From an uncultured Bacteroidota bacterium (lineage in GTDB: Bacteria; Bacteroidota; Bacteroidia; Flavobacteriales; Flavobacteriaceae), in the NCBI GenBank assembly GCA_902577515.1, contig CACGZJ010000001.1, positions 62,001 through 126,000 on the forward strand: 64,000 bases of DNA, in the 5' to 3' direction. Of this stretch, positions 34,882-48,876 are shown one piece after another. A program made the translations under genes and the position numbers. Below the pieces are notes generated by a model that made no database searches, was not told the DNA's origin, and saw nothing but the letters and a program-made list of their open reading frames with translations. How positions within the stretch are numbered: the stretch's first letter is position 1; the number at the start of each line of letters is the position of its first letter.

Positions 34882-36801
34882 TTAATAATAATGTCTTTTA
34901 AATGATTCAATTGCAGCATAATCTGCAAGTCCCATATTTTTATATTTTTCTGCTGTTTCACTATTTCTTTCTTCGGCTCTAACCCAAAACTCTCGTAGGT
35001 CTTGCCCTTGAAACATTACACCATCTTTTTGAGTCTGATGAAAAAAGATTGCTTTTCTTTTTCTTAACACTTGAGCAGGACTCATAGGTACTGCCATATC
35101 GATATCATGTATCTCCCAATCTAACCATGCACCTCTATATAGCCAAAGCCAGCAATCTTTAATGAACTTTTCACCCTTTAAAGAATTTAAAGCCTCTAAA
35201 ATTATATCCAAACAAACTTTGTGAGTTCCATGTGGATCTTCAAGATCTCCAGCAGCAAATATCTGATGAGGTTTAATTTTTTTTATTAATGATGCTGTTA
35301 TCAGTAAGTCTTTCTTTGTTGGAGGATTCTTTTTTATTCTTCCTGTATCATAAAATGGAAGATTCATAAAATGAGTATTTGAATCTGGAATCCCAATATA
35401 TCTTGTAGCAGCTATAGCTTCTCTTTTTCTTATAAATCCTTTAAAATTTCGTAAAGCTTTTGAATCAACTTTATCTGGCTTATTATTCTTTAATTCCTTT
35501 ATTAATAAACTGACAGGTACTTCGGAGTCATTTTTAAACATGTCCTTGGAAACCTCTAAAAATTTGAGAGCATCATGATCTGAGACAGCAATATTCCCTT
35601 TTACTTGGTATGCAATATGAACTTCATGTCCTTGAGATACAAGTCTATCAAATGTTCCTCCCATTGATACTACATCATCATCAGGATGAGGACTAAAAAT
35701 AATTACCCTTTTAGAACTAGGTGATTTTCTCTCAGGTCTGGTTGAGTCATCAGCACTTGGTTTTCCTCCAGGCCAACCTGTAATTGTATTTTGAAAGTGA
35801 TTAAACATCTTAATATTAAGATCATATGCAGATCCTTCAAGAGCCAATAAATCAGATAATCCATTCTTATTATAGTCTTCGTCAGTTAATTTTAATATAG
35901 ATTTTCCAGTTATCTCACAAAGCCAAACTATTGCTCTTCTTTTCATTGAATCAATCCATTCACATGTGCTAACTAGCCATGGAGTTTTAAATCTTGTTAA
36001 TTCACTGGCAGACTCTTTATCAAGGACTAGTGTAGTATTCTTATGACTTTGAAGATATGTAGTTGGAATTAATGATGTGATAGTATCTTCTACTGATTTT
36101 TTTACAATTAAACTTTTATGAAGTCCCCATGCCATCACAATAATCCTTTTTGCGCTAAAAATTGTTCTTACACCCATAGTTATCGCCTTAGTAGGTACAT
36201 TCTCAATACCATTAAAACTTTTACTTGCATCAAATCTAGTTGTATGGTCAAGAGTAATAAGTCTAGTTTTAGAGTTAAAATGAGAGCCAGGTTCGTTAAA
36301 TCCAATATGTCCAGTTCTCCCAATACCTAATAGCTGTATATCTATTCCGCCATATTGTTCAATCTTTTCCTCATATGAAGAGCAGTATTTTTTAATTTCT
36401 TTCTCAATTATTTCTCCAGATGGTATATTAATATTTTCTTTTGGAAGATCAATATGATCAAATAGATTTTCATTCATGAAATGATTATAACTATTAGTAT
36501 CATCTTTTTTTATTCCATAATATTCATCAAGATTAAATGCAATTACATTTTTGAAACTCAATGATTCATTTTTATGGATCTTAATAATTTCTTGATAAAC
36601 TTGCGTTGGAGATGAACCTGTAGCGAATCCTATTACACAATTTTTATTTTTTTCCTGTTTAGACTTAACTAGATCACATATCTCTCTGGCAATATGAATA
36701 GAGGCCTCATGTGAATTCTCAAAATTAACAGTATGAAGTTTTTCAAATCTAGTATCCTCGTTGATTCCTGGAGATTGATACTTGAGGTTTTTTTTGGACA
36801 T
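34882..36801 (-). CDS. nagB: Fusion of glucosamine-6-phosphate deaminase-like and PIG-L deacetylase-like domains
   Basis: 639 residues in two domains. The N-terminal NagB domain (about 20-275) has FATGSSPTQVYQ (59-70), LDEYYG with Asp92, and GRTGHIGFNEPG (161-172) with His165 and Glu170. The E. coli catalytic Asp141, two residues before His143, corresponds here to Thr163. The C-terminal domain (about 363-639) has the LmbE/PIG-L metal motif PHPDDD (371-376) and LEDPHGTHK as the third-ligand region. This architecture is known in Bacteroidota; a coupled deacetylase and deaminase for GlcNAc derivatives is the natural inference, but the altered catalytic residue leaves the NagB activity open. It starts the operon with the M20 gene. 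Confidence 0.9.
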   Translation of the reverse strand: MSKKNLKYQSPGINEDTRFEKLHTVNFENSHEASIHIAREICDLVKSKQEKNKNCVIGFATGSSPTQVYQEIIKIHKNESLSFKNVIAFNLDEYYGIKKDDTNSYNHFMNENLFDHIDLPKENINIPSGEIIEKEIKKYCSSYEEKIEQYGGIDIQLLGIGRTGHIGFNEPGSHFNSKTRLITLDHTTRFDASKSFNGIENVPTKAITMGVRTIFSAKRIIVMAWGLHKSLIVKKSVEDTITSLIPTTYLQSHKNTTLVLDKESASELTRFKTPWLVSTCEWIDSMKRRAIVWLCEITGKSILKLTDEDYNKNGLSDLLALEGSAYDLNIKMFNHFQNTITGWPGGKPSADDSTRPERKSPSSKRVIIFSPHPDDDVVSMGGTFDRLVSQGHEVHIAYQVKGNIAVSDHDALKFLEVSKDMFKNDSEVPVSLLIKELKNNKPDKVDSKALRNFKGFIRKREAIAATRYIGIPDSNTHFMNLPFYDTGRIKKNPPTKKDLLITASLIKKIKPHQIFAAGDLEDPHGTHKVCLDIILEALNSLKGEKFIKDCWLWLYRGAWLDWEIHDIDMAVPMSPAQVLRKRKAIFFHQTQKDGVMFQGQDLREFWVRAEERNSETAEKYKNMGLADYAAIESFKRHYY

Positions 36802-36906: not shown

Positions 36907-37830
36907 ATGAATACAATCATTATAGGAAGTGGGCCAGCTGGATACACAGCGGCAATCTATGCAGCTAGAGCTGATCTTAAACCAATAATATATACTGGTT
37001 TAGAACCAGGTGGTCAACTAACTACTACAACTGAAGTAGATAATTTTCCTGGATATCCCCAAGGTATTGATGGGCCAACCATGATGAATGAATTAAGAGA
37101 ACAAGCAGAAAGATTTGGAACAAAAGTTGAAGTTGATTTTATTTCAAAAGTAGAATTTTCAAAAGAAAAAGGAGGAGTGCATAAAATTTACACTCAAAAT
37201 GGTGATGAAATACAAACAAAGACGATAATAATATGTACAGGTGCTTCTGCTAAATATCTTGGTCTTCCAAGTGAACAAAAACTTATTGGCGGTGGAGTTT
37301 CAGCTTGTGCAGTTTGTGACGGGTTCTTTTACAAGGGTCAAGATGTTGCTGTAGTAGGTGGAGGAGATAGTGCAATTGAGGAGGCAACATATTTAGCGAA
37401 AATTTGTAATAATGTTACAATGTTAGTTAGAAAGGATCATTTTAGAGCTTCAAAAGCGATGCAACATCGCTTAAGCAATTTTAAAAATATTCATGTTCTT
37501 TTTAATTCTGAAATAGATGAAGTATTGGGCGATAATGTAGTTGAGGGAATAAAAATTAAAAATAATATCACAAATGAGTATTCTGAAATTAATATTACTG
37601 GACTATTCCTTGCCATTGGTCATACTCCAAATACAGAGATTTTCAAAGGTATTGTTGATATGGATGATGGCGGATATATACTAACAGATAAGACTTCAAC
37701 AAAAACAAATATACCTGGAGTATTTGCTGCAGGTGATGTCCAAGATAAAGATTATAGGCAAGCAATTACTGCTGCAGGTACTGGCTGTATGGCAGCTCTA
37801 GATGCTGAAAGATATTTACAAGAAATTTAA
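36907..37830 (+). CDS. trxB: Thioredoxin-disulfide reductase
   Basis: An FAD enzyme that reduces thioredoxin with NADPH. 307 residues: GSGPAGYTAAIYAARA (7-22) binds FAD, the redox-active pair is Cys134/Cys137 in CAVC, GGGDSAIEEATYLAK binds NADPH, and FAAGDVQDKDYRQAITAAGTG closes the FAD domain. Length and motif order are normal. Its stop overlaps that of the convergent arginase-fold gene as TTAA. Confidence 0.97.
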   Translation: MNTIIIGSGPAGYTAAIYAARADLKPIIYTGLEPGGQLTTTTEVDNFPGYPQGIDGPTMMNELREQAERFGTKVEVDFISKVEFSKEKGGVHKIYTQNGDEIQTKTIIICTGASAKYLGLPSEQKLIGGGVSACAVCDGFFYKGQDVAVVGGGDSAIEEATYLAKICNNVTMLVRKDHFRASKAMQHRLSNFKNIHVLFNSEIDEVLGDNVVEGIKIKNNITNEYSEINITGLFLAIGHTPNTEIFKGIVDMDDGGYILTDKTSTKTNIPGVFAAGDVQDKDYRQAITAAGTGCMAALDAERYLQEI

Positions 37831-38948
37831 ATTCTTTTTGATGCTTTTATCCACCTTACAGGCAGGTTATCATTTAAGGCATCTTGATAATCACTTTCAA
37901 GACAAGGCAAAAATTTAGTTTTATCATTACTAGATGAGTTTACTGTCATCCACCATCTCTCTGAAATCTTACTTTTATAAAATATAATATCTCTACCTGA
38001 AGTTTGAACTATATATTTAAAAAATAATTGAGAATCATTAAAATTCGATTCATAAGTTCTATTATTTAAATTTTCAATAAAATACCAAATGATCTCAGAA
38101 TATAATTTATTAGAAATCTCATTTTTATTTAAGTCAAACAATCCAAAAAAGGATGTCTTATTGCTTTGACCTGCATATTTACTTAGTATACAAGCAAGTC
38201 TTGGATCTATTCCGTTAGGATTAGAATTTCCTGAGAATGATAATGATTTCATATCAAAACCAACTATATCAGCATCTCGAACAATTGGTTCAGCTCTCAT
38301 ATTATTTTCTGAAATTTCACCCAATGAAATTTTTTCAAAGAATAATTTTTCCATTAGCTCTAACTCCTCATATGAGCATAGGTGTCGTTGATACCCGATA
38401 TTTGTAAAATCATTTAATTTATTAGAATCATCCAGTATAATTTTGTTCATGTATGTTCTACCTGAAATTATATCTGAATCTTGATATAAGTCAAATTGAT
38501 TATCAATTGATACAATGTTTACTTTCTCAGAATAAGAATCAAAAGATTTGAAGATTGGATATATTATATCATTACTCCCTCCTATTACGATTAAAGTAAT
38601 TTTTTTTGAATATAATTCCTTACAGATATCATAAATTGCATGATAGGTATCCTCAACAGTATTACCGTTAGGAAGATCACCTAAATCAGATATGGTTATT
38701 TTCCATTTCCCTTGTTTTAGCGTATAAAGTTCTTTTCTAAGAATATTTAAATCTTGTATATCAGATTCAAAATAAGAGTTTCTAGTTTCGCTAATTCCAA
38801 TTATGCAAAGATTTGATGAATCTATATCAGGAATACCAGATTGTTCAGTATGAAATTTTATTTTATTAAAAAGTGATCCTTGTAAGTGATTTTCATTTAA
38901 TTCATTGAGTAAATTTTCTGAAACAGGTTTTAATAGCTCAAGGCTCAT
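37827..38948 (-). CDS. Arginase-fold (ureohydrolase-like) protein with degenerate metal site
   Basis: 373 residues with the outline of the arginase/formimidoylglutamase family. The usual GGxHS is GGSND (123-127), so His is Asn126; DAHxD is DNQFD (149-153), with His replaced by Gln151; and SxDxDxxDP is reduced to FDMKS with Lys234. Only some metal ligands remain, so hydrolysis of guanidino compounds is unlikely. The C-terminal WYFIENLNNRTYE and ERWWMTVN segments are specific to the topA-linked Bacteroidota branch as I remember it. It overlaps topA by four bases (ATGA), so the two are co-translated. The role is unknown; it may bind rather than cut a ligand. Confidence 0.78.
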   Translation of the reverse strand: MSLELLKPVSENLLNELNENHLQGSLFNKIKFHTEQSGIPDIDSSNLCIIGISETRNSYFESDIQDLNILRKELYTLKQGKWKITISDLGDLPNGNTVEDTYHAIYDICKELYSKKITLIVIGGSNDIIYPIFKSFDSYSEKVNIVSIDNQFDLYQDSDIISGRTYMNKIILDDSNKLNDFTNIGYQRHLCSYEELELMEKLFFEKISLGEISENNMRAEPIVRDADIVGFDMKSLSFSGNSNPNGIDPRLACILSKYAGQSNKTSFFGLFDLNKNEISNKLYSEIIWYFIENLNNRTYESNFNDSQLFFKYIVQTSGRDIIFYKSKISERWWMTVNSSSNDKTKFLPCLESDYQDALNDNLPVRWIKASKRI

Positions 38949-41395
38949 TTTTTCTTTTTTGGATTTAGATATTCTTTAGCAATATCTAAAGTAATAGTTT
39001 TGGGATCTATTTCTTTTGGAATTTCTATTTTCTTTTTACCCATTGTGATAATTGATCTTCCCCATCTACCCTTTTCAAGCTTAATTCCTTCATCAACCCA
39101 CTCGGCAATTAATTTTTCTTTTTCCTTTTTTAATTTTAATTCAATTAGTTCCTCAATATTATCTATACTAAGATTATCGAAGTCATATGTCTTATTTACA
39201 TTGATAAACATTTCGTTCCATTTTATAAATGGTCCAAACCTACCCTTTCCTTTTGTTACAGGCAAATCATTATAAGTATGAATAGGCTCATCCGCTTTTA
39301 ACTTTTCATCAATCAGCGGGATTGCAGAGTCTATATCTACTGAATGAGGATCAATTTCCTTAGGTATTGAAATAGATTTTGAGGAATATTTTAAATATGG
39401 CCCATATCTACCATTATTGACAGTTACAATCTCACCTTTATAGCTTCCAATTTCCTTGGGAAACTTAAATAGTTCTAATGCTTCGTCAAGAGTTATTGTA
39501 TCTAACTGCTTATCTTTAGTTAAGCTTGCAAAAATTGGTTTGTCCTCATCATCAATTGTTCCTATTTGAGCAATTGGACCAAACTTTCCAAGTCTAACTT
39601 TAACGACTCTTCCTGAAACTGGATCATCTCCTAAAATTTTTTCACCTGATTGTCTTTCAGCTGTATCTTTTACAACATTTACATTTGTGTGAAAATCCGA
39701 ATAAAATTGTTTTATTGTATCAGTCCAGTTTTGATTTCCCTCAGCTATTTTATCAAAACTTTTTTCAACTTCTGCAGTAAACCCATAATCAAGAATATTA
39801 TGAAAATTATCAACTAAAAAGTCATTTACAATTATACCAATATCAGTAGGAACAAGCTTGCCTTTATTAGAACCAGTTTTTTCAATTGAAGTATTTTCAA
39901 TTATATCTCCATTTTTTAATTCTATTGATTTATAGCTTCTTTCTGTGCCTTCGTTTTCACCTTTAGCTACATAGCCTCTATTCTGAATTGTTGATATTGT
40001 AGTTGCGTAAGTTGCAGGTCTCCCAATACCAAGTTCCTCCAATTTTTTAACTAAAGATGCTTCAGTATATCTTGAGGGAGGTCTAGAGAATAACTCTCTT
40101 GAAATGATATTAGTTAAATCAAGATCCTCATTAACATTTAATTGTGGTAAGATGCCTTTTTCTTCCTGAACTTCATCGTCAGTTCCTTCATTGTATACTC
40201 TTAGAAAACCATCAAACTTTATTACTTCACCTCTAGCAATAAATATTTCATCAAAAGAATTTGAATTGATATTCACGACTGTTCTCTCAATTTGTGCATC
40301 TGACATTTGTGAAGAAATTGTCCTTCTCCAAATAAGTTGATATAATCTTTGCTGATCATAATCTGAGGATATATCTTCAACCAAAATATCTGTTGGTCTA
40401 ACAGCTTCATGAGCCTCTTGAGCTGATTTATTTTTATTTTTATAATTTCTCAGATTTACATAACTATCTCCATACTTGCTCTCAATTTTAGATAAAATTG
40501 ATGATTTAGCTTCTTCAGATATAGTGACACTATCTGTTCTCATATATGTTATTAAACCTGCTTCATAAAGTTTTTGAGCTGTTGACATAGTCCTTGTGAC
40601 CCCAAAACCAAGTTTCCTAGAAGCCTCTTGCTGAAGCGTTGATGTGGTGAAAGGAGGTGTAGGAGATTTCTTAGCCGGTTTTTTTTCTACGTTAGACACA
40701 TTATATGAACTATTGATATTTTTTACAAGAAATGCTTTAACTGCTTCAGCAGAATCAAATTTCTTGTTTAACTCAGCCTTTAGGTTGACTCCACTAGAAT
40801 TTTTAAAAGTTGCAATTGACTTGTAAGTACTATTTGTTAAAAAGTTTTTAATCTCTCTTTCCTTTTCAACAATAAGTCTTACTGAAACTGACTGAACCCT
40901 TCCAGCAGAAAGGCCTGTCTTAACTTTTCTCCATAATACTGGAGATAGTTCATAACCTACTAATCTATCTAAGACTCTTCTAGCCTGTTGAGCATTTACA
41001 AGATTATAGTTTATCTCTCTAGGACTATCTAATGCACTTAAAATTGCGTTTTTGGTTATTTCATGAAATACTATTCGATCATAGTCTTTATTAATTAAGT
41101 TTAAATTTTCATATAAGTGCCAAGCAATTGCCTCACCTTCTCTATCTTCGTCACTTGCTAACCAAATTTTATCAGATTCATTAACATACTTTTTAAGATC
41201 TTTTATAACAGGTTTCTTTTCTGTAGGAATTATATATTTAGGTTTAAAATTATTTTCAACATCAACTCCTAATTCTTTAACTGGAAGGTCTGAAATATGC
41301 CCAACACAAGACACAACTTTAAAGTCTTGTCCTAAAATTTTTTCAATAGTCTTTGCTTTTGTAGCAGACTCAACAATGACTAAATTTTTTGGCAT
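38945..41395 (-). CDS. topA: DNA topoisomerase I
   Basis: Relaxes negative supercoils. 816 residues: the Toprim domain starts NLVIVESATKAKTIEKIL and includes SDEDREGEAIAWHL with the metal-binding acids; the active-site Tyr is in GLITYMRTDS; the C-terminal repeats KGRFGPFIKW and GRYGPYLKY are Topo_C units in place of the zinc fingers of E. coli. Length and layout are normal for Bacteroidota. Confidence 0.97.
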   Translation of the reverse strand: MPKNLVIVESATKAKTIEKILGQDFKVVSCVGHISDLPVKELGVDVENNFKPKYIIPTEKKPVIKDLKKYVNESDKIWLASDEDREGEAIAWHLYENLNLINKDYDRIVFHEITKNAILSALDSPREINYNLVNAQQARRVLDRLVGYELSPVLWRKVKTGLSAGRVQSVSVRLIVEKEREIKNFLTNSTYKSIATFKNSSGVNLKAELNKKFDSAEAVKAFLVKNINSSYNVSNVEKKPAKKSPTPPFTTSTLQQEASRKLGFGVTRTMSTAQKLYEAGLITYMRTDSVTISEEAKSSILSKIESKYGDSYVNLRNYKNKNKSAQEAHEAVRPTDILVEDISSDYDQQRLYQLIWRRTISSQMSDAQIERTVVNINSNSFDEIFIARGEVIKFDGFLRVYNEGTDDEVQEEKGILPQLNVNEDLDLTNIISRELFSRPPSRYTEASLVKKLEELGIGRPATYATTISTIQNRGYVAKGENEGTERSYKSIELKNGDIIENTSIEKTGSNKGKLVPTDIGIIVNDFLVDNFHNILDYGFTAEVEKSFDKIAEGNQNWTDTIKQFYSDFHTNVNVVKDTAERQSGEKILGDDPVSGRVVKVRLGKFGPIAQIGTIDDEDKPIFASLTKDKQLDTITLDEALELFKFPKEIGSYKGEIVTVNNGRYGPYLKYSSKSISIPKEIDPHSVDIDSAIPLIDEKLKADEPIHTYNDLPVTKGKGRFGPFIKWNEMFINVNKTYDFDNLSIDNIEELIELKLKKEKEKLIAEWVDEGIKLEKGRWGRSIITMGKKKIEIPKEIDPKTITLDIAKEYLNPKKKK

Positions 41396-41517: not shown

Positions 41518-42888
41518 ATGAAAGTTGAGCAGATATATACAAAGTGTTTATCACAAGGTTCATACTACATAGAGAGTAATAAAGAAGTAGCTATTATTGA
41601 CCCTTTAAGAGAAGTTGATATCTATATAGCTAAAGCTAAATCAAGTAATTCTAAAATTAAATATATTTTTGAAACACATATTCATGCAGATTTTATTAGT
41701 GGTCATTTAAATCTTGCAAAAAAATCAGGAGCACAGATAGTTTATGGTCCTGAAACAGAAACTGATTTTGAAAATATTAATGCGAAAGATTATGAGGAAT
41801 TTAAAATTGGTGATATAACTATTGTTGCAATTCATACACCTGGCCATACAGTTGAGAGTACAACTTACTTACTTAGAGATTCATCAGGAAAAGATCATGC
41901 AATTTTTACAGGAGACACTCTATTTTTAGGTGATGTTGGAAGACCTGATCTTTCTCAAAAATCAAGTCTAAGTAATAGTGATTTAGCATCTATGCTTTTC
42001 GATAGCTTAAGAAACAAAATAATGACTCTTGATGATGATGTTATAATTTATCCTGGTCACGGAGAGGGTAGTTCATGTGGAAAAGATCTAAGTTCTGATA
42101 CAGTTGGGACTTTGGGCGATCAGAAGAAAACTAATTATGCACTAAGAGAAAATATGAGTAAAGAAGAGTTCATTAATGAAGTGATTGATGGATTGTTAGA
42201 ACCTCCAAAATATTTTCCTGCTAATGTAAGTTTGAATAAAAAGGGTTATTTAGGGTCTGAAGAAATTTTGGAAAAGTCAATTAATCCTTTGAGTCCTGAT
42301 GAAATAGAGGAAGAATTTAAAAACTCAACAGTACTGGATGTGAGGAATCATGATGACTTTTCAAAATCTCATATACCTGGATCAATCTTTATAGGTTTAG
42401 ATGGAAGATTTGCTCCGTGGGTTGGTGAGATTCTTGAGGATATTACTCAACAATTAATTTTAGTAACCCCTGAGGGGAGAGAGGAGGAAACTGTACTAAG
42501 ATTATCTAGGGTTGGTTTTGATAATATTCTCGGTTATCTAGAAGGAGGAATAGAATCATGGGTTAGTTCAGGTAAAGATACTGTACATATAAAAAACATT
42601 AATGCTAATGACTTTTTAAAATTAAATTCAGAGTCTGATATTAAAGTACTAGACGTAAGGTCAAAAAAGGAAAATAGTCAATCTAAAGTGGAAAATTCTT
42701 TTAATATTCCCCTTATTTCTCTAAAGGATGAAATAGAAGGAATTAATACAAATAGCAACCTATACGTTTATTGCAAAGGTGGTTATAGGAGTATGATTGC
42801 ATGCTCAATCCTAAAATTCAATAATAAAGATAATATTGTAAATATATTGGGTGGATTTGACTCTATATCATCAAATCAAGGTATATAA
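41518..42888 (+). CDS. MBL-fold hydrolase with two rhodanese domains (persulfide dioxygenase-like)
   Basis: A cytoplasmic sulfur-metabolism protein. 456 residues: the metallo-beta-lactamase domain (1-240) with THIHADF (53-59), HTPGHTVEST, FTGDTLFLGDVGRPDL and YPGHGEGSSCG matches the persulfide dioxygenase/ETHE1-like branch. Rhodanese domain 1 (about 265-350) lacks a catalytic Cys: the loop reads TPEGREE. Rhodanese domain 2 (about 360-456) has the loop YCKGGYRS with Cys419. Oxidation of low-molecular-weight persulfides and transfer of sulfane sulfur is the likely role (family knowledge plus inference). Confidence 0.88.
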   Translation: MKVEQIYTKCLSQGSYYIESNKEVAIIDPLREVDIYIAKAKSSNSKIKYIFETHIHADFISGHLNLAKKSGAQIVYGPETETDFENINAKDYEEFKIGDITIVAIHTPGHTVESTTYLLRDSSGKDHAIFTGDTLFLGDVGRPDLSQKSSLSNSDLASMLFDSLRNKIMTLDDDVIIYPGHGEGSSCGKDLSSDTVGTLGDQKKTNYALRENMSKEEFINEVIDGLLEPPKYFPANVSLNKKGYLGSEEILEKSINPLSPDEIEEEFKNSTVLDVRNHDDFSKSHIPGSIFIGLDGRFAPWVGEILEDITQQLILVTPEGREEETVLRLSRVGFDNILGYLEGGIESWVSSGKDTVHIKNINANDFLKLNSESDIKVLDVRSKKENSQSKVENSFNIPLISLKDEIEGINTNSNLYVYCKGGYRSMIACSILKFNNKDNIVNILGGFDSISSNQGI

Positions 42889-42956
42889 ATTGCTCATTTT
42901 TAACTTTTAAATATTTATATTTTTTGTAATTTAAAATATACATTAAAAAAAATCTT

Positions 42957-45900
42957 ATGAAGACAAAAAATATATTATCAGCAATTCTAATTATTTTTTC
43001 TTTAAACACTTATGGACAGAAAAAGAAATCTGAGCTAAAATTTGACCAAAACCTATATAGCTCAATTGAGTATAGATTGGTAGGGCCATTTCGAGGTGGT
43101 CGAGCTGGAACAGCAGTCGGTGTTTTAAATAATCCAAATTTATATTACATGGGAACAGCTGGAGGTGGAGTATGGAAAACACAAGATGCTGGCTCTACTT
43201 GGGAACCTATTAGTGATGGTTATTTTGGTGGAAGTATTGGAGCAATTGCAGTAAGTGAATCTGATCCAAACATCATATATGTTGGTGAAGGTGAACAAAC
43301 CCTAAGAGGGAATGTATCTTCTGGGCACGGAATGTGGAAAAGTACAGATGCTGGTGAAACCTGGCAATACATAGGTTTGCCAAAATCTGAGCATATATCT
43401 AGAATAAGAATTCATCCTGAAAATCCTGAAATAGTTTATGTAGGAGTTATAGGAAATTTATGGAAGCCCAATTCTGAGAGAGGGCTATATAAAACAAATG
43501 ACGGTGGAATTACATGGGAAAAAATCTTATACGTTTCTGATAAAGCTGGAATTGGAGACATAATTCTCGATCCAAATAATTCTAGAATTATATATGCTAC
43601 AACCTGGCAAATGAAAAGAAATGGATATAGAATGGATAGTGGAGGTCCTGATTCAAAAATTTTTAGAAGTTATGATAGTGGTAAAACGTGGGAAGATATT
43701 TCAGAATTTAATGGATTACCATCATTTCCGTGGGGAATAGTTGGTGTAGCAATTTCTCCTGTAAATTCAAAAAGAATTTGGGTAATGGTTGAAGCAGATA
43801 ATGGAGGTTTATTTAGATCAGATGATGGAGGCAACAACTGGGAAAAAGTTAATTCTAATAGAGCATTAAGACAGAGAGCTTGGTATTATACAAGAATTTA
43901 TGCTGATACTCAAAATGAAGATAAAGTATTTGTTCTTAATGTAAGTTATGGAGTATCAACTGACGGAGGAAAAACTTTTACACTAAAGAATGCTCCTCAT
44001 GGAGATCATCATGATTTATGGATTGACCCAAATAATAATATGAGAATGGTAATTGCTGATGATGGAGGTGCACAAGTTTCAAATGATGGAGGAGAAAATT
44101 GGTCAACATATTTTAATCAACCTACAGCTCAATTCTATAGAGTCTCTACTGATAATTCTTTTCCATATAGAATATATGGTGCTCAACAAGATAATAGTAC
44201 AGTAAGAATAAAACATAGATCCTCAGGCTCTTCAATAACTGAAAGAGATTGGGAGCCAAGTGCTGGGGGAGAAAGTGCCCATTTAGCACCTGATCCAAAG
44301 AATAATGAAATAGTATTTGGAGGTACATACAAAGGCTACATGATGATGCAAGATCATTCAAATGGTCAAATTAGGTCAGTAAATATTTGGCCAGATAATC
44401 CAGCAGGATCAGGTGCTGAAGTGATGAAGTATCGATTCAATTGGAACTTTCCTGTTATGTTTAGCCCGAACAATCCTAATAAGTTATACGCAGGCTCAAA
44501 TTATTTACATCTTTCTGAGAATAGTGGACAGACATGGAAAACAATATCTCCCGATTTAACAAGAAATATTCCAGAGACAATAAAGTCGTCAGGAGGTCCC
44601 ATTACTCAAGATAATACTGGCGCAGAGTATTATGCTAATATTTTTGCAATTGCTGAATCAGAACTAGAGGAAGGTGTAATCTGGGTTGGAAGTGATGACG
44701 GTTTAATTCATATAACAAAAGATGGAGGAGAAACATGGGAAAATATAACTCCACCAAAAAAATTATCACCTGAATTAAACATGATAAATAGTATCGATCC
44801 AAGTCCATTTAAGAAAGGGAAAGCATATGTAGCTGCAACGTCATATAAGTTTGGAGATTATACTCCCTATCTATACAAGACTGAAGATTACGGAAAAAGT
44901 TGGAGCCTTATTACGGATGGAATTAATTCAAATTATTACACTAGAGTTTTGAGAAGTGACAAAAAAAGAGAAGGTCTTCTTTATGCAGGAACAGAGTGGG
45001 GAATGTATATTAGTTTTGATGATGGAAATTCATGGTCTGAATTTCAGTTAAATCTTCCTGTCACATCCATCAGAGACCTCAAGGTTAAAGATAATGACCT
45101 AGTTGTTGCTACTCATGGTAGGAGTTTTTGGATTATTGACGATTTAACTCCATTGCACCAATTAAATAATGATAATCAAAATGATGATGCGATACTTTTT
45201 AAACCTGACCTTTCATACAGAATGGCTCAATCAGGTGGTCGAAATAGGCCTAATAATCTTTTATATGGTGAAAACCACCCTAATGGAGTAATTGTAAATT
45301 ATTATATAAAGAATCTACAAGAAGGTGATTATATAAGAATTGATATTGAAAATAAGGATGGGTCAGTTATTAGAACTTTTACAAATAATAAAGATAAACA
45401 CTCCAAGATTGAAAATAATGATGTTAATAAAATGGTTGGGAATCCTGTCTTGAGTAATCCTAATGATATTGATAATGCATTGAGTTCAGACAATCTTGTC
45501 TCATTATCTCCTAGGTCAGGTGGAAATAGGCTAATATGGGATATGAGGTATCCAGGGTTTAAATCATTTGAAGGTATGGTTCTCTATTCTTCCCCAAATG
45601 TAGGTCCAAAAGTTGCACCAGGAAAGTATATTATTAAAATGACTTACAATGATCAAATCCAACAAAAAGAATTTGAGATAGTCAAAGATCCAAGAGTTAA
45701 GATTTCTCAAGCTGATTATGAAGATCAATTAGAATTTTTAATTAATGTCAGAGATGAAGTCAGTAGAGCTAACCAAAAAATAATTGATATCAGAAATATT
45801 AAAAACAATATGATTTTTATTTCTGAGAAGACTAGGGATAATATTGAATTACAAGAAATGATAAATAATTATTTGACTGATGTCTCTGAAATTGAAAATA

Positions 45901-46163
45901 ATATTCATATGACAAAAAATCAAAGTCGACAAGATCCTCTAAATTATGGAATTCGAATAAACAATAGAATTGCATTTTTGCTAGCAGATTCTCAAAGAGG
46001 AGACTATCCTCCTACTGATCAATCAAAAGAATTCTTTATTCAAGTAAAAGGAGAATTAGATTCAGAAGTAATGAAATTAGATGCTCTGATTGATAAGCAT
46101 TCGCAAAAGATTAAAAATTATTTAGAGGAAAATAAAATTGAGTTAATTTCTTTAAATAACTGA
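42957..46163 (+). CDS. Secreted BNR/sortilin-like propeller protein
   Basis: 1068 residues with a signal peptide (1-20, cut after TYG). At least nine Asp-box motifs of the form S/T-x-D-x-G-x-T-W are visible, including TQDAGSTW, STDAGETW, TNDGGITW, SYDSGKTW, SDDGGNNW, SNDGGENW, TKDGGETW, TEDYGKSW and SFDDGNSW. They span residues 70 to about 690 and imply one or two beta propellers of the VPS10/BNR kind. The last 250 residues (about 820-1068) include a beta-sandwich-like part (PKVAPGKYIIKMTYND) and a helical region. No sialidase catalytic residues can be assigned; such proteins are common in marine Bacteroidota and their role is unknown. Confidence 0.83.
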   Translation: MKTKNILSAILIIFSLNTYGQKKKSELKFDQNLYSSIEYRLVGPFRGGRAGTAVGVLNNPNLYYMGTAGGGVWKTQDAGSTWEPISDGYFGGSIGAIAVSESDPNIIYVGEGEQTLRGNVSSGHGMWKSTDAGETWQYIGLPKSEHISRIRIHPENPEIVYVGVIGNLWKPNSERGLYKTNDGGITWEKILYVSDKAGIGDIILDPNNSRIIYATTWQMKRNGYRMDSGGPDSKIFRSYDSGKTWEDISEFNGLPSFPWGIVGVAISPVNSKRIWVMVEADNGGLFRSDDGGNNWEKVNSNRALRQRAWYYTRIYADTQNEDKVFVLNVSYGVSTDGGKTFTLKNAPHGDHHDLWIDPNNNMRMVIADDGGAQVSNDGGENWSTYFNQPTAQFYRVSTDNSFPYRIYGAQQDNSTVRIKHRSSGSSITERDWEPSAGGESAHLAPDPKNNEIVFGGTYKGYMMMQDHSNGQIRSVNIWPDNPAGSGAEVMKYRFNWNFPVMFSPNNPNKLYAGSNYLHLSENSGQTWKTISPDLTRNIPETIKSSGGPITQDNTGAEYYANIFAIAESELEEGVIWVGSDDGLIHITKDGGETWENITPPKKLSPELNMINSIDPSPFKKGKAYVAATSYKFGDYTPYLYKTEDYGKSWSLITDGINSNYYTRVLRSDKKREGLLYAGTEWGMYISFDDGNSWSEFQLNLPVTSIRDLKVKDNDLVVATHGRSFWIIDDLTPLHQLNNDNQNDDAILFKPDLSYRMAQSGGRNRPNNLLYGENHPNGVIVNYYIKNLQEGDYIRIDIENKDGSVIRTFTNNKDKHSKIENNDVNKMVGNPVLSNPNDIDNALSSDNLVSLSPRSGGNRLIWDMRYPGFKSFEGMVLYSSPNVGPKVAPGKYIIKMTYNDQIQQKEFEIVKDPRVKISQADYEDQLEFLINVRDEVSRANQKIIDIRNIKNNMIFISEKTRDNIELQEMINNYLTDVSEIENNIHMTKNQSRQDPLNYGIRINNRIAFLLADSQRGDYPPTDQSKEFFIQVKGELDSEVMKLDALIDKHSQKIKNYLEENKIELISLNN

Positions 46164-46228
46164 AAATTACTGACAAATTGGCATATTTTCAATTAATTAA
46201 TTAATTTTATAATCAAAATTAAATTAAT

Positions 46229-47614
46229 ATTAAAAAGAAGTCTTTATATATTGAAACATATGGATGTCAGATGAATTTTGCTGATAGCGAAGTAGTTGCA
46301 TCAATTCTTGATAAAGATGGTTATAAACTTACTGATAAGGCAAAAGATGCTAATCTTGTATTACTGAATACTTGTTCTATAAGAGATAAAGCTGAGCAAA
46401 CTGTAAGAAATAAGCTAAAAAATTTTAATTCACAGAAAAAAGAGAATAAAGATCTTAAAGTTGGCTTATTAGGGTGTATGGCGGAAAGACTCAAAGAAAA
46501 ACTTCTTGATGAGGAAAAAATTGTTGATTTAGTTGTTGGACCTGACTCATATAAAGATCTACCAAATCTATTAGATGAAGTAGAGCATAATCAAAGAGCA
46601 GTCAATGTGATTCTATCTAAATCTGAAACTTATGGTGATATTTCCCCTGTTAGAATTCATAATAATGGTATTAACGCATTTGTATCTATTACAAGAGGTT
46701 GTGATAATATGTGTACTTTTTGTGTTGTGCCTTTTACAAGGGGAAGAGAAAGAAGTAGAAACCCTGATAGCATATTAAGGGAGATAGATGAGTTAAACCA
46801 AAAAGGATATAGGGAAATAACATTACTCGGACAAAATGTTGATAGTTATTTATGGTATGGTGGAGGTCCCAAAAAAGACTATAAAAAAGCCACTGAAGAG
46901 CAAAAGAAAAATTCTATAAATTTTTCAAGATTACTTGACTTGGTTGCTTCAAGTTTTCCTGAAATTAGAATAAGATTTTCAACTTCTAATCCTCAGGACA
47001 TGACAATTGATGTAATTGAAACTATGTCTTTATATGGAAATATATGTAATTATATTCACCTTCCTATTCAGTCTGGAAGTGATAGAATTTTAAAAAAGAT
47101 GAATCGACTTCATACTAGAAAGGAGTATCTTGATCTTATAAAGAAAATTAGAGAAATAATCCCTAATTGTGGTATTTCTCATGATATGATTACTGGGTTT
47201 CCATCTGAAACTGAAAGAGATCATCAAGATACTTTATCTCTAATGGAAGAAGTAAGGTATGACTTTGGATATATGTTTGCGTATTCTGAAAGACCGGGAA
47301 CTTATGCGGCTAGACATTTTAAAGACGATATCTCTCCAGAAATTAAACAAAGAAGGTTAGAAGAAATAATTACTCTTCAACAAAGGCAAAGCCTAGAAAG
47401 AAATAAAAGTTTTATTAATAAAGATTGTGAAGTACTTATAGATAAAGAATCTAAAAAATCAAATGATTTTTGGAGTGGAAGAACAACTGAAAATAATGTT
47501 GTTGTTTTTCCTAAATACAATTTTAAATTAGGTGATACTGTAAATGTTAATATTAGTGATTGTACAACTGCAACTCTAATTGGAAATATTAATCAATCAA
47601 AAGCTAAGGTTTAA
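46229..47614 (+). CDS. miaB: tRNA-2-methylthio-N6-dimethylallyladenosine synthase with non-canonical start
   Basis: A radical-SAM enzyme that methylthiolates i6A37 in tRNA. The frame upstream of the first ATG (46271) encodes KKKSLYIETYGCQ, the conserved N-terminus holding the first cluster cysteine, so the protein must start earlier. The only codons between the in-frame stop TAA (46220-46222) and this segment that could start it are ATT at 46223 or 46229; I use 46229. Other motifs are intact: LNTCSIRDKAE, LGCMAERLK, the radical-SAM CDNMCTFC motif, and a C-terminal TRAM domain. The stop overlaps the next start as TAATG. Confidence 0.9.
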   Translation: MKKKSLYIETYGCQMNFADSEVVASILDKDGYKLTDKAKDANLVLLNTCSIRDKAEQTVRNKLKNFNSQKKENKDLKVGLLGCMAERLKEKLLDEEKIVDLVVGPDSYKDLPNLLDEVEHNQRAVNVILSKSETYGDISPVRIHNNGINAFVSITRGCDNMCTFCVVPFTRGRERSRNPDSILREIDELNQKGYREITLLGQNVDSYLWYGGGPKKDYKKATEEQKKNSINFSRLLDLVASSFPEIRIRFSTSNPQDMTIDVIETMSLYGNICNYIHLPIQSGSDRILKKMNRLHTRKEYLDLIKKIREIIPNCGISHDMITGFPSETERDHQDTLSLMEEVRYDFGYMFAYSERPGTYAARHFKDDISPEIKQRRLEEIITLQQRQSLERNKSFINKDCEVLIDKESKKSNDFWSGRTTENNVVVFPKYNFKLGDTVNVNISDCTTATLIGNINQSKAKV

Positions 47615-48876
47615 TGGAGTCGGTTTTAAATGTAAAACAAAGGTTTGGTATAATTGGAGATAATCCTAAACTTAATAGAGCAATTGAAAAATCAATTCAA
47701 GTTGCTAACTCTGATATATCTGTTCTTGTTACAGGAGAGAGTGGTGTTGGAAAAGAGAACATTCCTAAAATTATTCATCAGTATTCTCACAGAAAACATG
47801 CTAAATACATTGCTGTTAATTGTGGAGCAATTCCCGAGGGTACAATTGATTCTGAATTATTCGGGCATGAAAAAGGAGCATTTACTGGAGCTACAGCAAA
47901 CAGGAGTGGTTATTTTGAAGTAGCTGATGGTGGAACAATATTCCTTGATGAAGTTGGTGAACTTCCACTTTCTACTCAAGTAAGACTTTTAAGAATTCTT
48001 GAAAGTGGAGAATATATTAAAGTTGGATCTTCAAAAGTTCAAAAAACTAATGTAAGAATAGTGGCTGCGACAAATATTAATATGGATGAGGCAATAAAAA
48101 AAGGAAAATTCAGAGAAGATCTTTTTTACAGGCTAAGTACTATAATTATTAACATACCGCCATTAAGGGATAGAAAAGATGATATCCCTATTTTGTTCAG
48201 AAAATTTGCATCTGATTTTGCCCAAAAATATAACATGCCAACCTTAAGACTTGATGAATCTGCTCAAAACTTACTCTGTCAACAAGACTGGAAAGGTAAT
48301 ATAAGACAGCTTAGAAATATTGCTGAACAAATGTCAATATTGGAAAAAGAAAGGAATCTTAAAATTGATACTCTAAATAATTATCTTCCAAATAAAGTTT
48401 CTAAACTACCCGCAACTCTTGATGATGTTAAAGAAGATTCATCATCTTTCTCATCAGAGCGTGAAATACTTTATAAGGTTCTGTTTGATATGAAGAATGA
48501 CTTAAATGATCTAAAAAAATTAACTCTTGAAATTATGCAAGGCGATGATAACAATGAGATAAAAGAAAAGAATCAAGGCTTGATTAATAAAATTTATGGT
48601 GATGATGAATCATATGACAGTCAAGAAATACAAAATTCACCCGTTGATTTGAATGTTGATATAGAGAGTAAAGTTCAGGATAAGTATGACTATGTTGAAA
48701 CGATTGAAGAGGAAGAGACACTTTCTTTACATGATAAAGAATTAGAAATGATTAAGCAAGCACTAATAAGAACAAATGGTAGGAGAAAAAATGCTGCAAA
48801 AGAGCTTGGAATATCTGAAAGAACATTATATAGAAAAATTAAACAACACAACATTGGAGATATATCAGAGCTTTAA
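47614..48876 (+). CDS. Sigma-54-type AAA+ activator with Fis-type DNA-binding domain
   Basis: 420 residues: the AAA+ domain lies directly at the N-terminus, with Walker A GESGVGKE (41-48), the sigma-54 contact loop GAFTGA (88-93), and Walker B GGTIFLDEVGE (106-116). RIVAATNINMDEAI and FREDLFYRL follow. A linker of about 100 residues (270-375), rich in Asp, Glu, Ser and Lys, leads to a Fis-type helix-turn-helix (about 378-415, GRRKNAAKELGISERTLYRK). There is no receiver, PAS or GAF domain, so the signal is unknown. It sits between miaB and lptE, a conserved flavobacterial order. Confidence 0.9.
   Translation: MESVLNVKQRFGIIGDNPKLNRAIEKSIQVANSDISVLVTGESGVGKENIPKIIHQYSHRKHAKYIAVNCGAIPEGTIDSELFGHEKGAFTGATANRSGYFEVADGGTIFLDEVGELPLSTQVRLLRILESGEYIKVGSSKVQKTNVRIVAATNINMDEAIKKGKFREDLFYRLSTIIINIPPLRDRKDDIPILFRKFASDFAQKYNMPTLRLDESAQNLLCQQDWKGNIRQLRNIAEQMSILEKERNLKIDTLNNYLPNKVSKLPATLDDVKEDSSSFSSEREILYKVLFDMKNDLNDLKKLTLEIMQGDDNNEIKEKNQGLINKIYGDDESYDSQEIQNSPVDLNVDIESKVQDKYDYVETIEEEETLSLHDKELEMIKQALIRTNGRRKNAAKELGISERTLYRKIKQHNIGDISEL

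Follow-up and report, generated by a model that had tools for sequence, protein, structure and literature searches.

Gene organization of the locus

The window analysed here is the whole stretch of 64,000 nucleotides taken from contig CACGZJ010000001.1 of an uncultured Flavobacteriaceae bacterium. It contains a gene whose product is predicted to adopt the arginase fold and is very probably a ureohydrolase pseudoenzyme. The gene is flanked by topA and trxB:

37827–38948, minus strand: gene of the arginase-fold protein, 373 amino acids (open reading frame, match to PF00491 at 37.4 bits, AlphaFold2 model and fold matches)
38945–41395, minus strand: topA, the gene upstream (TIGR01051, 677.3 bits; cut-off, 456.4)
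36907–37830, plus strand: trxB, the convergent neighbour (TIGR01292, 405.9 bits; cut-off, 343.45)

The start ATG of the arginase-fold gene overlaps the stop codon of topA in the sequence ATGA, and the ATGA overlap recorded in the first-pass annotation was thus borne out. At the other end, the arginase-fold gene and trxB converge and overlap by their stop codons. The same arrangement was found in the 18 tabulated rows of the window's own clade, a group of marine bacteria with genomes of 0.8–1.3 Mb.

Family assignment and the metal site

The profile match and the predicted fold both place the protein in the ureohydrolase superfamily. Residues 76–218 matched PF00491, the arginase family of Pfam, above its cut-off of 22 bits, and no other PF00491 gene was found in the window genome (1.16 Mb, 78% complete). 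TIGR01227, the formimidoylglutamase family of NCBIfam, has a cut-off of 229.15 bits and gave a score of 34 bits, so the protein does not qualify as the formimidoylglutamase HutG, and the label of formimidoylglutamase would indeed be misleading, as had been anticipated. TIGR01227 was matched by all 13 A1 members at an E value of 0.01 or better (best, 7.7e-30).

The six metal-ligand positions were set by alignment with B. subtilis HutG (PDB 3m1r) and with 21 paralogue rows of the phylum, 13 of which read HDHDDD. Ureohydrolases carry H-D-H-D-D-D at these positions. The window protein has N126, D149, Q151, D153, D232, and K234 (NDQDDK); three ligands are replaced and three are kept, and the set differs from that of ureohydrolase enzymes even when Asn is allowed at the first position. 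The replacements are located as follows:

38571–38573, minus strand: Asn126, the metal position of the GGxH motif (alignments; Asn is also found in some formiminoglutamases)
38490–38504, minus strand: D149-N-Q151-F-D153 replacing DAHxD, with His changed to Gln151 (alignments)
38247–38255, minus strand: D232-M-K234 replacing DxD, with the second Asp changed to Lys234 (alignments)

The first-pass annotation had pointed out GGSND, DNQFD, and FDMKS at the ureohydrolase motif sites and had counted Asn, Gln, and Lys as three lost metal positions. The motifs are present in the protein and all three positions are replaced, but the Asn alone does not amount to a loss. Asn occurs at the first position of 3m1r (GGDN), of the T. 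cruzi formiminoglutamase (N114, judging from a structure title that names an "N114H variant"), and of 7 of the 21 paralogue rows, which read NDHDDD, and Asn126 is therefore no proof that the site is lost. By alignment, the changes that count as diagnostic are Gln151 and Lys234, and because of these two residues a normal two-metal site cannot form. The ureohydrolases L116–L118, L120–L122, and L124, from other Bacteroidota classes, also read NDHDDD, with the first His alone changed to Asn.

NDQDDK was identical in 18 of the 18 tabulated own-clade rows, and the gene is under purifying selection (see below). As judged from these sequences, the replaced residues are therefore the product of neither chance nor sequencing error.

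Conservation among orthologues

The initial search found 24 loci, 18 of which were in similar small marine genomes (70–91% identity) and six of which were more distant (31–40%). The final table holds 157 orthologue rows; one gene (G464) is counted twice, and five very divergent rows of family f5 were kept separate. L001 and L026, both duplicates of the window gene, were left out of the alignments, as was L018. The orthologue in L018 (7992–9138) carries a frameshift close to its beginning, which reflects either an assembly error or a real break; the locus is conserved in other respects. A reduced set of 139 rows counts the own clade once and omits L143, the same gene as L183.

None of the 157 orthologue rows showed HDHDDD or NDHDDD, whereas 20 of the 21 paralogue rows did. 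The proposed loss of the metal site thus stood up at the level of the family, and the replacements of the canonical site were also present in the alignment of the topA-linked homologues. Position 151 was occupied by Lys (43 rows), Arg (33), Gln (24), Leu (13), Ile (10), His (6), and others, and position 234 by Ser (47), Asn (27), Lys (21), Gly (20), and others, with Asp in 8 rows. All seven rows of family f2 read N-S-I/V-S-N-D, in which the Asp residues at 149, 153, and 232 are lost as well; f2 is probably Weeksellaceae, because the tree groups it with a contig labelled as such. In the five separate f5 rows most of the site is gone, and what is left is non-canonical.

Other residues were nearly invariant in the 139-row set: E220 (139 rows), C349 (139), R224 (138), W288 (138), P221 (137), and W332 (136). 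These six residues set the orthologues apart from most of the paralogue rows. In a quick tree of 74 rows, the 21 paralogues were split off by a branch of length 1.06 with 100% support in the Shimodaira–Hasegawa-like approximate likelihood ratio test. The tree suggests that the enzyme site was lost early and that another feature has been conserved.

The median ratio of nonsynonymous to synonymous substitution rates of the arginase-fold gene was 0.085 (21 pairs from 7 sequences), indicating purifying selection; the values for topA and trxB were 0.051 (21 pairs) and 0.026 (15 computable of 21 pairs), respectively. This ratio, together with the intact frames in the 18 own-clade rows, rules out recent decay into a pseudogene. 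We also considered a salt-bridge swap, in which a basic residue at 151 or 234 would replace the metal. An association was seen in the 132 rows with all three Asp residues (p = 2.8e-4) and disappeared when the own clade was counted once (115 rows, p = 0.55), and the swap was rejected. A mobile origin of the gene was likewise rejected, there being no match among 72,556 plasmid records.

Predicted structure and C-terminal domain

The AlphaFold2 model, computed from 13 rows, had a predicted local distance difference test score (pLDDT) of 88.4 and a predicted template modelling score of 0.90. Its core superposed on entries of the T. cruzi formiminoglutamase with a Z score of 31.9 and a deviation of 2.2 Å over 269 residues, so that the arginase fold noted at first pass is upheld by the model. 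The fold matches mostly span residues 14–299. The remainder includes a further domain:

37833–38024, minus strand: C-terminal domain of four strands and two helices, residues about 309–372, including Cys349 (model, profile search, and alignment)

Modelled alone, the C-terminal domain had a pLDDT of 86.1. A Foldseek search with the isolated domain gave no significant fold match (best E value, 1.1), which is no proof of a new fold. In a sample of 118 genomes, the profile of the domain matched the orthologue locus in all 29 genomes of the class. Elsewhere in the sample it gave nine partial matches of at most 20.5 bits, in eight genomes of other classes plus a second one in G115, which were taken as chance. 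The domain appears to be a mark of the family, convincing only there among the genomes searched.

The solved structures of HutG (3m1r from B. subtilis; 4mxr and 4myn from T. cruzi) are among the nearest by both profile and fold, and they share with the window protein the arginase fold and Asn at the first metal position. They differ from it in that the window protein has lost the His at 151 and the Asp at 234, falls far below the family cut-off, and carries the extra C-terminal domain. Entries of the T. brucei arginase-like protein (4rhi, 4rhk, 4rhm, and 4rhq) were also among the fold matches. By analogy, and as far as its entry titles tell, this protein may serve as a precedent for dead ureohydrolases. 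It has lost other ligands (S149, R151, S153, and S226 in the wild type, according to the titles of the mutants), and it is eukaryotic, without a topA or gldKLMN context.

Distribution and genomic linkage

Of 395 genomes sampled across the phylum, 158 gave a match with an E value of 1e-3 or better. Reading of the matches assigned an orthologue to 90 of the 98 genomes of the window's own class (f1, 41/41; f2, 8/8; other families, 41/49). In the window's own family, 196 of 199 genomes possessed it. The matches in other classes were weaker, and the 13 fetched out of 68 were ordinary ureohydrolases (NDHDDD types or HDHNDD), with no orthologue among them. Further PF00491 genes were present in all 12 other own-family genomes tested and in 4 of the 19 own-clade genomes; a second one was not found in the other 15 own-clade genomes, several of which are incomplete.

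The first-pass annotation described the gene as coupled to topA. The coupling was confirmed and is old, topA being located upstream at a distance of at most 500 bp in 19/19 own-clade loci, in 40/40 other own-family loci, and in 40/40 loci picked from the order that includes genome G394. It is not general, however, being absent in all 39 loci of families f3, f4, f5, f8, and f9 and present in two of seven f2 loci. The linkage on the downstream side had gone unnoticed, as had the C-terminal domain and the Asn of otherwise normal ureohydrolases. All 40 own-family loci outside the clade have gldK downstream, followed by gldLMN where the length of the locus permits. The type IX secretion machine has gldKLMN among its core operons. 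In the order of G394, 26 of the 40 picked loci have gldK downstream, preceded by porP; 26/40 is not a fair rate, the loci having been picked from 105, mostly away from contig ends, and the last few with GldL known nearby, although the topA outcome was not known in advance. None of the 19 own-clade loci, the window included, has gldK downstream, and the window locus is thus not a type IX secretion locus by gene content. Of the two links, that to topA has persisted best, in three groups, and that to gldKLMN offers the strongest clue to function; both have exceptions.

In own-family genomes outside the clade, gldKLMN occupies the position that trxB takes in the window. Upstream of topA, the region 41518–48876 (plus strand) carries miaB and a sigma-54-type regulator, divergent from topA as in the Flavobacterium locus L020, with two extra genes between topA and this pair in the window. 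Since miaB lies divergently beyond topA in both L020 and the window, gene order indicates that the window locus is an L020-type locus in which trxB has taken the place of gldKLMN.

Three further observations concern other genes and loci. At 34882–36801 (minus strand), reading of the open reading frame suggests a candidate glucosamine-6-phosphate deaminase fused to a PIG-L-type deacetylase. A promoter scan was uninformative, with 33 sites where shuffling led one to expect 25.9. Family f8 has a setting unlike that of topA and gldKLMN: the orthologue stands just after an nqrF-like gene in seven of eight loci (L077, L079–L081, and L083–L085) and precedes murK- and murQ-like genes in four of the eight, the gene names being given by sequence reading.

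Co-occurrence with type IX secretion

Among 149 genomes of the order of G394, 105 possess both the orthologue and GldL, 32 possess GldL alone, none possesses the orthologue alone, and 12 have neither, G496 (32 bits) being counted as a paralogue. The orthologue was thus found in 105 of the 137 GldL-positive genomes and in none of the 12 GldL-negative ones. In 57 of the 105 double-positive genomes both genes are on one contig, and in 56 of these they are within 8 kb. In the phylum sample, the orthologue occurred without GldL in G359 and in the window genome.

GldL, SprA, and PorU were each found in 0/19 own-clade genomes, a set made up of the window genome and those of L002–L019, and three of three outgroup genomes were positive for each. 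G735, a 95% complete genome of the window's genus, has the orthologue, and GldL was not found in it; this genome appears to be the same assembly as that of L014, as the coordinates are equal, and is no twentieth case. Of fourteen control genomes, none gave a match to GldL or SprA, two gave a PorU match below the cut-off, and nine gave a PF00491 match. From these searches, the own clade apparently lost type IX secretion and kept the arginase-fold gene.

Possible function of the protein

We favour, with moderate confidence, the reading that the protein is a metal-free pseudoenzyme, a cytosolic binding or regulatory protein that derives from an ancestral topA-X-gldKLMN locus and was retained for a role independent of the secretion machine. 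Hydrolysis would have been lost, and the protein would work as a cytosolic binding or regulatory factor. The emptied pocket, the conserved residues (E220-P221-R224, W288, and W332 and C349 of the C-terminal domain), or both may bind a ligand or a protein partner. An old position of the gene is topA-X-[porP]-gldKLMN. Because this position lies between topA and the genes for type IX secretion and gliding, the ancestral job most likely concerned the secretion and gliding machine itself or the expression of its genes. The window's reduced marine clade seems to have lost the machine while the gene persists beside topA, so that a role independent of the machine should exist too. The partner could be the secretion machine, TopA, or something encoded elsewhere.

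Several observations weigh against this reading. D149, D153, and D232 are retained jointly in 132 of the 157 rows, for which a pure scaffold has no need. The co-occurrence in the order of G394 gives a Fisher p of 1.3e-7, which is no fair probability because the genomes are related. Orthologue and GldL genes that are neighbours vanish together in assembly gaps, which inflates the co-occurrence; the fragmented genome G549 is an example, its congener G437 having both genes. GldL without the orthologue was found in three f10 genomes, one f12, and one f11 of the phylum sample, in addition to the 32 genomes of the order of G394. Finally, the own-clade genomes are mostly small partial assemblies of unstated completeness, so that each single absence is weak.

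The protein may instead be an accessory factor of the type IX secretion and gliding motor, acting, for example, on the cytoplasmic side of GldL. The position of gldK directly downstream in all 40 own-family loci outside the clade agrees with this idea, as do the 56 double-positive genomes with the two genes within 8 kb and the absence of the orthologue from every GldL-negative genome of the order of G394. However, the gene is kept in 19/19 own-clade genomes, and the searches for GldL, SprA, and PorU found none of the three there. Several GldL-positive lineages do without the orthologue, so the secretion machine does not require it. We consider a motor factor somewhat unlikely.

The first-pass annotation had suggested a partner kept with topoisomerase I. 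An association with TopA, in which the overlap would couple translation and the two proteins would act together as partners or regulator and target, appears unlikely to us. The ATGA overlap and the constancy of topA within 500 bp upstream in the three groups speak for it, and the link survives in the clade without GldL, SprA, and PorU. On the other hand, topA adjoins the orthologue in none of the 39 loci of the five families and in only 2/7 f2 loci, and the orthologue is lacking in 8 of the 98 genomes of the class sample, though topA is a general housekeeping gene. A Pfam search of the window protein showed no DNA-binding domain. Since the link is lacking in five families, a TopA partner is not demanded by the data.

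We regard it as quite improbable that the protein has kept enzyme activity by way of a mononuclear or otherwise altered metal site formed by D149, D153, and D232. The joint retention of the three Asp residues would suit such a site, and an Asn at the first position is tolerated in the T. cruzi formiminoglutamase, whose structures carry Mn according to their titles. Against it stands the assortment of residues at positions 151 and 234; moreover, f2 and several other members keep the gene despite having lost Asp residues of the site. Active enzymes in which just the first position is Asn do exist as families; this explanation was set aside as the main one since positions 151 and 234 are also changed.

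It is very improbable that the protein plays a part like that of MetCb, the inactive partner of MetCa, within a mixed ureohydrolase, because no ureohydrolase gene is adjacent and 15 of the 19 own-clade genomes, several of them incomplete, showed no second PF00491 gene, even though at least one further such gene is present in 12/12 other own-family and 4/19 own-clade genomes. According to passages of PMC11271267, metformin hydrolase contains an active subunit, MetCa, and a subunit of arginase fold without metal, MetCb (8x3g and related entries), which supports MetCa; members of the MetCb clade have 3 to 5 of the 6 ligands changed. The window protein resembles MetCb as a probably metal-free arginase-fold protein, and a binding role has been shown for MetCb in the same source. 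The metCb gene adjoins that of its active partner, whereas the window gene adjoins topA and trxB and has no paired paralogue.

Going further than the reading of a metal-free binding or regulatory protein, we can picture a non-catalytic offshoot of the ureohydrolases, equipped with a C-terminal domain of its own, that would long have served the class as a cytosolic sensor or adaptor. It would hold a small ligand in the emptied pocket, tie the state of the cell to the secretion and gliding motor and to the adjacent topoisomerase I, and have outlived the machine in a streamlined marine clade. This picture is speculative, and we consider it rather doubtful.

Among the open papers listed, a set that mostly excludes subscription journals, none dealt with this gene in its title or the opening of its abstract. 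Passage searches found no arginase- or formimino-type terms in PMC12635249, PMC8986121, PMC7440613, and PMC5682007, and no mention of arginase in PMC12147357. Pseudo-ureohydrolases are already known; the listings and passages searched showed no widespread family of them that has a C-terminal domain of its own and occurs in a topA-gldKLMN setting.

The enzyme label is doubtful under either outcome for the machine. If the protein acts on the type IX machine, a cytosolic component of that machine has been overlooked under the name of an enzyme. If it does not, the family is a pseudoenzyme conserved widely for some other purpose, and cells have kept it even at genome sizes near 1 Mb.
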